Of a stretch of 33,590 bases of DNA, positions 18,645-28,843 are shown one piece after another. The stretch spans positions 1 through 33,590 of the forward strand of contig NZ_RQYN01000033.1 of assembly GCF_003860135.1 (NCBI RefSeq). Reading direction: 5' to 3'. The DNA is from Tannerella forsythia. GTDB taxonomy: Bacteria; Bacteroidota; Bacteroidia; Bacteroidales; Tannerellaceae. Positions within the stretch are counted from its first letter, which is position 1; each line of letters opens with the position of its first letter. A program made the position numbers and the translations under genes. Below the pieces are notes generated by a model. The model was given only the letters and a program-made list of their open reading frames with translations, searched no databases and had not been told where the DNA came from.

Positions 18645-18730
18645 CGATTAGCATCCACGTTTTTTTCGTTTTCTTATCCGCAGCGATTACTTCATAATAC
18701 CTCAATCGAATGTAACTCCTCTCCCAGTGC

Positions 18731-18943
18731 GCGGAAATGTACCGGTACGGCGGGAAATTATCTTGCGGCGCTCGGAAATATCTCGGTATGACGGAAGATG
18801 TTGGAGCATGGCTCGGAGACTTCTCGGCATAACGTGAAAAGAGAATACATTGCGCCGGAATCTCACGGGATAACGGGAAATTATCTCGCGATGCTCGGAA
18901 ATGTCTCAGCGCACCGGAAGATGTCGGAGCATGGCTCGGAAAG
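18731..18943. repeat. Degenerate tandem array, 20-21 bp period
   Basis: Eleven units sharing CGGAAAT followed by a TCTCGG-like block occur with spacings of 19-22 bp (mean about 20.5). Superimposed on this is a longer duplication: 18751-18819 and 18874-18942 align over 69 bp without gaps at roughly 85-88% identity, 123 bp apart. The sequence resembles some units of the array at 1-577 (for example GCTCCGAACGTATCGG). It ends about 70 bp before the putative promoter of the helicase gene. Frames open across it look fortuitous. Confidence 0.75.
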
Positions 18944-26230: not shown

Positions 26231-27205
26231 ATGATAGATAAAAGAGATATAGAGAAGCCTGTCTCGGAAGAGTTCGGAATATTCCGCGAGAAATTTGCGG
26301 AGGCGCTTTATAGCGAAATCGCTACCATACGCAAAGCCATCGAAACGGTATATCATTCGAATGGCAAGCATATCCGCCCGCTTTTGGTGCTGCTGACAGC
26401 CAAGGCCTGCGGACGTGTCACGCCGGACTCGATCCATGCAGCTGTGTTTCTCGAATTATTACATACGGCGTCGCTCCTTCACGATGATGTGGTGGACGAT
26501 ACCCGCCAGCGCCGGGGACTTCCCTCAATGAACGCGCTCTTTGATAATCGTGTAGCCGTGCTGATAGGTGATTTTATCCTCTCCGAAGCGCTCGTGCGGG
26601 CCACGCAGACGGGACAGGTGCAGATCGTTTCGATCATCGCGTCGCTCAGTCGTCAGATGGCTGAAGGCGAAATCAAGCAGCTGGAAAACGCGCAAGAACA
26701 GATATTGGAAGAAAAAGACTACCTGATCGCGATTGAAAAGAAAACATCGATGCTGCTCTCGGCATGTACGGAAATCGGTGCCGTAACAGCTCGGGCAACC
26801 CCTTCGATGCAAGAGAGTTGTAGAGAGTTCGGTCGTCTGCTTGGCTACTGTTTCCAGATACGCGATGATATTTTCGATTACTTCGATGACCCGGTCGTCG
26901 GCAAGCCCAGCGGCAACGACATCCGCGAAGGGAAGGTGACCCTGCCTCTGCTTTACGCCCTCGAATCGACAGACGAACCGACGAAAGCGCCTTATCTGAA
27001 GATGATTCGTGAGCGAGATTTCTCGCCTGAAAATGTCGCGGCGCTGATCAGTTTCGCCAAAGAGCGTGGAGGGGTCGAATATGCCATGTCTCGTATGGCA
27101 TACTATAAGGAGAAAGTGGCGGATATCATCCGTTCATTACCCGACAATGACGCCCGTGAGAGCCTGTTGCTCCTCGCCGACTATGTAATTGAACGAAAGA
27201 AGTAA
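26231..27205 (+). CDS. Long-chain polyprenyl diphosphate synthase
   Basis: A 324-residue all-helical prenyltransferase with both aspartate-rich motifs intact: DDVVD at 85-89 and DDIFD at 212-216. It adds isopentenyl units in the trans configuration. The small residues a few positions before the first motif (TAS) favour a long product such as the octaprenyl or longer side chain of menaquinone; exact length cannot be read from sequence. The last 17 codons and the stop lie in a 55-bp segment repeated at 28290-28344, beyond the hicAB genes. The present 3' end may therefore have been supplied by that insert. Confidence 0.9.
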   Translation: MIDKRDIEKPVSEEFGIFREKFAEALYSEIATIRKAIETVYHSNGKHIRPLLVLLTAKACGRVTPDSIHAAVFLELLHTASLLHDDVVDDTRQRRGLPSMNALFDNRVAVLIGDFILSEALVRATQTGQVQIVSIIASLSRQMAEGEIKQLENAQEQILEEKDYLIAIEKKTSMLLSACTEIGAVTARATPSMQESCREFGRLLGYCFQIRDDIFDYFDDPVVGKPSGNDIREGKVTLPLLYALESTDEPTKAPYLKMIRERDFSPENVAALISFAKERGGVEYAMSRMAYYKEKVADIIRSLPDNDARESLLLLADYVIERKK

Positions 27206-27206
27206 A
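27152..27206 (+). repeat. 55-bp direct repeat, left copy (3' end of the polyprenyl synthase gene)
   Basis: This segment encodes the C-terminal residues ending LLLLADYVIERKK and the stop. It matches 28290-28344 at 50 of 55 positions without gaps. The core GAGAGCCTGTTGCTCCTCGC is identical in both. Confidence 0.9.
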
Positions 27207-27529
27207 TCCTTTCTGCACAAGATCGGGAGCTTCCAAGGCGATCACAAAGTTTCGTCTGTTACATGTCCTCCGTTTGACGACAGCACCAGAAATCACCGGA
27301 TTGTGGCCTGGATACGTCATGTGTATAGTTTAATATGGCCCGGAGTGTTATATCATGATGTTACATTTTTTGTCTAACGGTTGAGGGGAATAAGCATCAG
27401 ACTTTTACAGATGAAAAAAACTTTAATCTAACGACAAAAGAAAAAATAAAGGCGTAGCAAAAACAAGGAAGAATCATTGTTTATTGTTCATATTATTACT
27501 ATATTTGCGTCGTCGAAATAGAAAACGCG
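27206..27529. other. Noncoding left part of the hicAB insert
   Basis: No gene of convincing length or composition is visible here. The first 150 bp match nothing I recognise, and the remainder becomes AT-rich toward the hicA promoter. No integrase, transposase or inverted terminal repeats were found. Confidence 0.5.
27477..27507 (+). promoter_or_regulatory. Promoter of hicAB
   Basis: TTG at 27477-27479 is followed by 20 bp and TATATTTG at 27500-27507, a consensus Bacteroidota promoter. The hicA ATG is 22 bp downstream. HicB proteins commonly repress such promoters. Confidence 0.65.
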
Positions 27530-27718
27530 ATGAGCTATAAAACCGTAAAAGAAGTAATCAATCTGTTGAAAGAAAATGGTTTTGTGGTAAAGACCAAAAA
27601 GGGAAGCCATATAAAGTTCGAAAAAGGCGGGAAGATTGTTATTGTACCGGATCACGGAAGCAAAGGCGTAGAAAAAGGTACCTATTACAATATACTTCGA
27701 CAAGCGGGGTTGAAATAA
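27530..27718 (+). CDS. hicA: HicA family mRNA-interferase toxin
   Basis: A 62-residue basic protein with the double-stranded-RNA-binding-like HicA/YcfA fold. It has an N-terminal helix (VKEVINLLKENGF), the motif KGSHIKF with the catalytic His27, a central strand, and the ending GTYYNILRQAGL. HicA toxins cleave mRNA and are neutralised by HicB. It lies 13 bp upstream of the antitoxin gene in one unit. The reading frame and catalytic His are intact, so the toxin is likely active. Confidence 0.93.
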   Translation: MSYKTVKEVINLLKENGFVVKTKKGSHIKFEKGGKIVIVPDHGSKGVEKGTYYNILRQAGLK

Positions 27719-27731
27719 AAATAAGCAGATT

Positions 27732-28124
27732 ATGAGGAAGGTAGAAGTTATCGTCGAACACGCAGGCAACAATCTTAGTGCCTATATTCAAAATGTTCCT
27801 ATCCTTGTGGTTGGTAATACGGTTAGTGAGATAGAAAACAATATGAAAGAAGCTATCGAGCTGTATTTGGAAGACAATGAGAATCCTTGTGAGGAACTAT
27901 CGGGCAGTTTCTCCCTGGTATTCAAGTTAGATGCCGCTACATTTATCAATAATTACAGCGGGATTTTCACGAAGTCCGCGCTGAGCCGCATTACGGGAAT
28001 TAATGAGCGCCAACTTTGGCATTATGCCGCAGGAATACATAAGCCCCGAGAAAAACAATTGAAAAAGATACAAGACGGGGTGAAGGCTTTAAGCGAAGAA
28101 CTGTCCCGCATAAGCTTATTGTAG
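27732..28124 (+). CDS. hicB: HicB family antitoxin
   Basis: A 130-residue protein with the HicB arrangement. The N-terminal partial RNase-H-like domain (about 1-70, VEVIVEHAGNNLSAYIQNVP, then a helix MKEAIELYLED) binds the toxin. A C-terminal helix-turn-helix at about 79-117 (TKSALSRITGINERQLWHYA) should bind the operon promoter. It completes an intact type II toxin-antitoxin pair with hicA. Confidence 0.92.
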   Translation: MRKVEVIVEHAGNNLSAYIQNVPILVVGNTVSEIENNMKEAIELYLEDNENPCEELSGSFSLVFKLDAATFINNYSGIFTKSALSRITGINERQLWHYAAGIHKPREKQLKKIQDGVKALSEELSRISLL

Positions 28125-28289
28125 AGGCTAATAATCTTCATCGGATCTGTACGACTGAGGTTTTGAGAAATGCCAAAAGGGTTAAGGATAAGTGTTTTGT
28201 TTAGAAACACACTTGTTAAACAAGATTGTGAATAGATATTAGGATGCAAATTCAGAGAGGAACGAACTTCGGAGTGCGCAAAGTTAAAT

Positions 28290-28344
28290 GCACGCGAGAG
28301 CCTGTTGCTCCTCGCCGAGTATGTGATTGAGCGAAAGAAGTAAA
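28290..28344 (+). repeat. 55-bp direct repeat, right copy (displaced gene-end remnant)
   Basis: This copy still reads RESLLLLAEYVIERKK and a stop in the frame of the polyprenyl synthase gene. The differences near its end are one Asp-to-Glu change and two synonymous codons, so it looks like a once-functional allele of that 3' end rather than random similarity. It lies 14 bp before the convergent VanZ-like gene. Confidence 0.9.
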
Positions 28345-28357
28345 GAGGAGATTGCTT

Positions 28358-28843
28358 TTACCTCCGACTTTTGCGTGTCGGTCTTTTGGAGCGGCGTACC
28401 GACCGAATCAGAAAGAGAGCGATACAGAGTCCGATCGTAAATCCGGCAAAATCGATCCATACGTCGAGCAACGAAGGCCCACGACCGCAACCGAACAGTT
28501 GGATGGTCTCGTCGCACACGGCCGTGAACAGTCCTGCAAATAGCGGCCACGAGATATGCGGCATCAGGCGATTCGTGTAGACGCGTAATGTTAGTGTCAA
28601 GAAAAGCCCCAGCAGCATAAATTCGGTCAGGTGCGCGAGTTTCCGTACGGTATACACTGTGAACCGATAGTCGATACCCAAATGACCGATCAGCCGGTTC
28701 AGCCACTCGGTAACCATCGCACTACGCAGTCCGGACGCTTCGCCTCCCTGTAGCGAGTTCGTAAAGATAAAGACGGTTACAGCGATAGTCAGTAGCGTGT
28801 ATATCCAGCGAAACAGCTGTGTATGTTTGCCTTTCTTATTCAT
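28358..28843 (-). CDS. VanZ-like membrane protein
   Basis: A 161-residue protein with four hydrophobic helices and the VanZ-family polar pattern: RKLAHLTEF at 67-75, DETIQLF at 111-117, and GRGPSLLDVWIDFAG at 120-134. VanZ was named for low-level teicoplanin resistance, but most homologues, including single genes in Bacteroidota, have no known role. The C terminus is strongly basic. It converges on the hicAB insert, and before the insertion it would have been the direct neighbour of the polyprenyl synthase gene. Confidence 0.85.
   Translation of the reverse strand: MNKKGKHTQLFRWIYTLLTIAVTVFIFTNSLQGGEASGLRSAMVTEWLNRLIGHLGIDYRFTVYTVRKLAHLTEFMLLGLFLTLTLRVYTNRLMPHISWPLFAGLFTAVCDETIQLFGCGRGPSLLDVWIDFAGFTIGLCIALFLIRSVRRSKRPTRKSRR

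Follow-up and report, generated by a model that had tools for sequence, protein, structure and literature searches.

Chromosomal toxin-antitoxin pairs raise the question of how they move when they have no vector, and it is posed by a short locus of Tannerella forsythia where a predicted hicAB pair lies between two copies of the end of a housekeeping gene. The locus is located on a contig (C153) of 33,590 nucleotides, which was analysed over its whole length and is referred to here as the window. A small and fairly well-documented case, the site combines an intact insert, two relatives in which it is empty and a pair of gene ends that can be compared with each other.

The gene in question is intact and encodes a polyprenyl diphosphate synthase of 324 amino acids (26231..27205, plus strand; Pfam polyprenyl_synt, 2.1e-63). 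Its last 18 codons including the stop codon, together with one further base, form the left copy of a 55-bp direct repeat (27152..27206, plus strand), of which the right copy is an orphan gene end that remains in frame up to the stop codon (28290..28344, plus strand) and encodes the peptide ARESLLLLAEYVIERKK-stop. The two copies are identical at 50/55 positions (91%) with a start-to-start distance of 1138 bp, and a chance origin of the pair is excluded because it is recovered with an E value of 6.4e-17 when the region is searched against itself (locus L191). All five mismatches (repeat positions 3, 6, 30, 36 and 42) fall on third codon positions, and only one of them alters the encoded residue, from Asp to Glu, the other four being synonymous. 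The initial annotation had reported 55-bp direct repeats with five mismatches around about 1.1 kb that contains only hicA and hicB, and a right copy that retains the C-terminal peptide and its stop codon with changes that are either synonymous or Asp to Glu; its coordinates and number of mismatches are exact, and the substitutions are of the two kinds named. The synthase gene has a G+C content of 0.52 and the right copy one of 0.53. The right neighbour of the site is a VanZ-like gene (28358..28843, minus strand; Pfam VanZ, 8.1e-15), which follows the right copy and is convergent with the synthase gene. The sequence stems from a draft assembly of 226 contigs, which could suggest that the second gene end is an assembly artefact; this is scarcely credible, as both copies are contained within one contig of 33.6 kb, the DNA between them occurs once in the genome, and genome completeness and contamination are 99.98 and 0.01, respectively.

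The insert between the repeats comprises 1083 bp and is AT-rich, with a G+C content of 0.35-0.41 depending on the segment. HicA and hicB are the only convincing genes between the copies, and a small open reading frame at 27189-27377 has no match in NCBIfam. As had been annotated, no recombinase is present: the insert contains no open reading frame of that size, and a Pfam scan of five proteins of the site gave none either, the window beyond these being read by its open reading frames. Neither a tRNA nor an Rfam feature at the gathering threshold is found across the window. The left part of the insert (27207..27454, G+C 0.41) is AT-rich, its first few bases weakly resemble a spacer of the relative G026, and across 41 genomes of the genus it yields only matches of less than 50 bp with E values of 0.008 or weaker. 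It is followed by the hicA promoter region (27455..27529, plus strand), in which we assume a candidate Bacteroidetes-type promoter motif, by hicA (27530..27718, plus strand) and by hicB (27732..28124, plus strand). After a probable remnant of the spacer between the synthase and VanZ genes (28130..28155, plus strand), the right part of the insert (28156..28289, G+C about 0.35) is no more similar to the synthase or VanZ genes than shuffled sequences are and has a single 28-bp match in the 41 genomes (E 0.096). The idea that the flanks of the insert are pieces of the synthase or VanZ genes was rejected, there being no such similarity. Compared as a whole with the same 41 genomes, the insert produces matches of 22-90 bp only (best E 1.8e-4), twelve genomes besides the window's own matching at E 0.1 or better; apart from the G026 spacer, at least one of these matches (G033, contig C250) falls in another hicA gene. 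The insert has no match in plasmids, and one phage record matches its hicAB part.

HicA is a predicted toxin of a type II toxin-antitoxin pair, consists of 62 amino acids and scores above the cut-off of the Pfam family HicA_toxin (5.3e-17); among the PHROGs it belongs to phrog_353, which is annotated as 'toxin' and placed in the moron class, and in PADLOC it has one marginal, irrelevant match (E 0.0064). The 130-residue product of hicB is predicted to be the HicB-type antitoxin from its alignment to HicB proteins and from the position of its gene behind hicA. On its own it matches no HicB family in Pfam, NCBIfam or PHROGs and no PDB chain was found for it; it aligns at 41-75% identity with eight proteins, and four of the nine aligned proteins match HicB_lk_antitox (best 2.2e-9). 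Compared with 16 HicB proteins from viral contigs it shows 41-75% identity, 14 of them lying at 69-75%, and in 12 of the 16 the hicAB cassettes are 65-71% identical at the DNA level over about 580-700 bp. This similarity sets in within the hicA promoter region, which is common to the viral cassettes, at 27455-27487 for most of them, and stops near the end of hicB. In one of the viral contigs (L172), the genes around hicAB resemble phage structural genes by eye. Of 395 genomes of the class, 36, including the window's own, contain a protein that matches HicB at 1e-10 or better, the best of the others being 50% identical. Judged from these comparisons the pair looks like a phage-type cassette, because the closest HicB proteins are in viral contigs and HicA falls in a moron-class PHROG. 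Like the window, the cassettes in viral contigs (IMG/VR, L170-L183) have the order promoter-hicA-hicB where this is covered, with HicB proteins at 69-75% identity, but unlike the window they have no match to the synthase gene end.

What the site looked like before the pair arrived can be seen in related genomes. Sixty relatives were searched with the synthase protein, and the closest are G025 and G026, to which the protein of the window is 90% and 87% identical at the amino acid level. Among 31 loci compared, including two of the window's own and covering about 1.5 kb of flank that in some cases ends at a contig end, the window's two and those of G025 and G026 are the only ones with a VanZ gene near the synthase gene; in both relatives the two genes adjoin. 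Both relatives with this neighbourhood (2/2) are empty: one gene end is followed by a short spacer and then by the VanZ gene, exactly the empty site with one gene end before VanZ that the initial annotation had predicted. The neighbourhood is therefore represented by three genomes, one with hicAB and two empty, and none of these three carries a different cargo. In a minimal mobile element in the Neisseria sense, the cargo between one and the same pair of conserved genes varies from strain to strain. Of the junctions in the window the right one is abrupt; placing the left crossover point would require the donor sequence.

The DNA between the repeats seems not to be wholly foreign, judging by the stretch at 28130-28155. 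It begins 5 bp past the stop codon of hicB and matches the 70-odd bp synthase-VanZ spacer of G026 at 24/26 positions, with a local alignment score of 22 as against a maximum of 12 in 200 shuffles; this spacer is also the sole G026 match of the insert in the comparison with the genus. A 24-base pattern of the stretch with three mismatches allowed occurs once in G000, the genome of the window, once in G026 and in none of four other genomes, and the shorter spacer of G025 has no trace of it. Because of this resemblance, host spacer DNA seems to be present inside the supposed element. A clean, repeat-bounded element does not predict such a stretch, and an allele with hicAB in its spacer does, which weakens the reading of the insert as an element. 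Alternatively, the 26 bp may be cassette DNA retained in G026 after this genome had once carried the cassette, rather than ancestral spacer.

It is proposed that a hicAB-bearing allele was imported through a crossover between homologous synthase genes on the left and an illegitimate junction on the right, leaving the recipient's gene end behind, a course of events that we consider probable, if not by much. A phage-type hicAB cassette would have settled in the synthase-VanZ spacer of a related lineage, and DNA with this hicAB-bearing allele would have entered an ancestor of the strain. On the left, a homologous crossover may have taken place somewhere in the synthase gene, and on the right the incoming DNA would have been attached, in the absence of homology, to the recipient's own gene at a point 51 bp short of its stop codon. 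The outcome would be a complete synthase gene with the donor's end, hicAB, a scrap of donor spacer and the orphan end of the recipient, in an arrangement that is itself observed. The process would correspond to homology-facilitated illegitimate recombination and its footprint to an insertion with long target duplication; once in place, hicAB as an addiction module would, as its family suggests, favour its own retention. Import of an allele explains why the gene is intact and an orphan end is present, how far the two ends have diverged, the scrap of spacer and the missing recombinase. Against it, the 133 bp ahead of the orphan copy have no convincing match and are left unexplained, an allele of the donor type, with hicAB and only one synthase end, was not found in the genomes searched, and the support from empty sites comes from two genomes only. 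The site bears the marks of imprecise DNA exchange between related bacteria more than those of a self-moving element, and suggests that allele exchange can give rise to an insert that is bounded by repeats and resembles an integrated element.

The differences between the two gene ends speak to the origin of the orphan. Left and right end differ at 5/18 third codon positions and at 0/36 first or second positions, and compared with either copy the ends of G025 and G026 show differences at 6-8/18 third positions and nowhere else. The two ends thus resemble coding alleles of different species, being nearly as divergent as these, and on the strength of five differences only both look as if they had diverged while coding. 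Over the whole synthase gene, third positions differ from G025 in 109/325 cases and from G026 in 101/325. An explanation by local events only would be a tandem duplication of the gene end and its spacer, after which hicAB entered the first spacer and the second was largely lost. It would account for the spacer-type DNA at 28130-28155 before the orphan copy without any donor, but it needs three events, and an orphan drifting in place, free of constraint, should have acquired changes at first and second positions, which are absent, all five differences being at third positions. At the mismatches in the 5' part of the repeat the relatives share the base of the left copy, both of them at position 6, G025 at position 3 and G026 at position 30; at position 36 both share that of the right copy, and position 42 is split. 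Three differences look derived on the right side alone, and the chance that all three should fall on third positions is about 0.04, with the polarity uncertain. Drift of the orphan in place is accordingly disfavoured, and we regard a purely local origin as improbable. As a further point for the import of an allele, the synthase gene of the window is unevenly diverged from the two relatives: at 26879-26986 it differs from G026 at 7/108 and from G025 at 22/108 positions, and in the preceding stretch (26771-26878) at 30 and 17, respectively, a pattern that possibly reflects past exchange between species.

A remnant of a site-specific integrative element, be it a prophage, an island or a cis-mobilizable unit, is another reading of such a site. 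CIMEs and other integrative elements target the 3' ends of genes. The window resembles them in that direct repeats rebuild the gene end, and differs from them in that no related integrase-bearing element was found at the synthase gene and that spacer-type DNA lies inside. On this reading the element sat in the 3' end of the synthase gene, its recombinase was lost or acted from elsewhere, and hicAB is the surviving cargo. The repeats do reach the stop codon, the empty sites carry one copy, the closest relatives of the pair are in viral contigs, and a stretch of 23 identical bp within the repeat could serve as a core. The polarity of the mismatches also fits an att-type crossover that produced hybrid attL and attR sites, weakly so, with an estimated chance of about 1 in 4. 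This must be set against the spacer remnant inside the insert, unless G026 has kept a scrap of the element, and against a survey of synthase loci, in which none of 108 outside the window has a second copy of the gene end. These are what remains of 115 loci after removal of the window's own seven; they include many distant orthologues, may contain overlapping fetches of one genome and were covered with flanks of 1.5-8 kb in many cases. Searches with the repeat core and the right copy in viral contigs, phages and plasmids likewise gave no close match: a 25-base core pattern has no exact match in viral contigs, where the sole match of the core is one of 20 bp (L287) outside any synthase context, and the right copy has none in phages or plasmids. 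An integrated element with a recombinase of its own was rejected, given that the insert has no such reading frame and that none of the 108 loci has a second end, and we hold a remnant that relied on another recombinase, or has lost its own, to be rather unlikely. Of the mobile-element footprint originally suggested, the insertion stands, borne out by both empty relatives and by the phage-associated pair; the repeats as the ends of an element that enters the 3' ends of genes are not supported, in view of the spacer stretch inside, the missing recombinase and the survey. The mechanism of such an element is less likely than an exchange that is not site-specific.

Import of an allele would have precedents in other systems, none of which coincides with the window. 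Nobusato and co-workers reportedly described in 2000 the insertion of restriction-modification (RM) genes with long target duplication in Helicobacter pylori. RM systems are described as inserting with long and variable target duplications (PMC3874152), and for one cluster an insertion of this kind was raised as a possibility (PMC4978471). The window shares with them addiction-type genes and the lack of a recombinase, the duplicated target of the RM systems being about 100 bp and variable, and it differs in having hicAB as cargo, a host of another phylum and copies that are 9% diverged. Because of this divergence, the copies in the window have the look of two separate alleles and not of a single target that was duplicated. 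In Vibrio cholerae, effector-immunity modules were inserted such that the old 3' parts were shifted behind them, for which homology-facilitated illegitimate recombination was tentatively proposed (PMC5361080), a process also reported in conjugation of E. coli (PMC3240628). The Vibrio arrays are like the window in that a module follows a homologous anchor and the old 3' part persists downstream as an orphan, whereas in the window the orphan consists of 18 codons of a housekeeping gene instead of an immunity gene and there is a single event and no array. A ParE/ParD-like pair of Microcystis lies between 152-bp direct repeats behind the MaOC1 gene (PMC7935541) and resembles the window in being a toxin-antitoxin pair within direct repeats just after a gene; unlike those in the window, its repeats are identical, start after the stop codon and contain an inverted repeat. 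A narrow literature search, limited to titles and the openings of abstracts, found no published description of hicAB between duplicated gene ends.

The same layout was sought at other hicAB loci by the rule that a direct repeat of at least 25 bp and at least 80% identity should lie on both sides of hicA/hicB with its copies 500-2500 bp apart. After removal of the window's own locus (L191), the set contained 104 hicA/hicB loci, 30 from the order, 29 from the genus, 29 from the class and 16 viral, which represent 103 places (L149 and L244 are one place, and neither is positive). Flanking repeats are present at 11/104 loci (order 5, genus 2, class 4, viral 0), or at 9/102 if three loci from one genus (L162, L163 and L169) are counted once. 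Control slices are positive in 8/486 cases, made up of 0/36 control loci of the genus, 5/330 synthase-gene slices of other genomes and 3/120 slices of G030. The difference is significant (Fisher p 7e-5, or 7e-4 with the one genus counted once), with the reservation that the controls were chosen by convenience, are mostly core regions and are unmatched for accessory regions. Within the genus alone it is not (2/29 vs 3/156, p 0.18). An earlier, looser repeat pass had given 6/74 non-window loci against 0/36 and 4/330.

The 11 positives are of several kinds, as read from their sequences and open reading frames, genome copy number having been searched for G002 only. The closest parallel to the site in the window is in G598 (L247/L250/L266), where approximately the last 80 bp of a gene are found on both sides of hicAB and a small open reading frame, and the orphan keeps its stop codon. 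There is no clean empty site for G598: among 15 other genomes with a match, the loci of 13 relatives were compared, and in none of them was the corresponding gene followed by the one that lies beyond the orphan copy. In G002 (L205, L219; contig C340) a stretch of about 220 bp that looks like a gene tail is found twice and, in part, once more at the contig end; hicAB lies between the first and second copies and other small open reading frames between the second and third, at nearly equal spacings of 1040 and 1049 bp, and the reading frame of the first tail copy is interrupted. In three species of one genus of the class (L162, L163, L169) hicAB reads as lying directly beside a tyrosine-recombinase-like gene, the start of which is repeated together with a palindromic stretch over 133-141 bp beyond hicAB. 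L221 consists of tandem hicB paralogues, L227 involves a remnant of hicB together with an apparent tRNA end, and L145, L194, L220 and L228 look like dispersed or intergenic repeats. The loci are heterogeneous and their flanking repeats share no common core by eye.

It could be argued from the excess over the control slices, and from the copies of a gene end in G598 and of an apparent tail in G002, that Bacteroidales hicAB pairs travel as minimal units, which enter gene ends time and again and duplicate the tail through a process peculiar to them that needs no encoded recombinase. This is highly improbable: the controls are mostly core regions unmatched for accessory ones, none of the 16 viral loci is positive, the genus alone gives no significant difference, most of the 11 appear to be of other kinds (repeats that are dispersed or intergenic, tandem hicB paralogues, a tRNA-like end, a recombinase-like gene), and the parallel in G598 lacks a clean empty site. 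In a broader form, HicAB of Bacteroidales might spread along chromosomes free of recombinases, land directly behind stop codons and leave orphan tails, with the synthase gene, G598 and possibly G002 as independent landings; to this we attach little credence. The similar layouts at other hicAB pairs are suggestive, a lead and not a result. Should recurrence at other gene ends survive a matched control, it would suggest a route that toxin-antitoxin pairs take more generally.

Repeats of other kinds are also present elsewhere in the window. Degenerate direct repeats of about 93 bp are located between two genes at 18725-18940, and the left end of the contig (1-545) contains degenerate direct repeats, mostly in multiples of 22 bp, together with inverted repeats.
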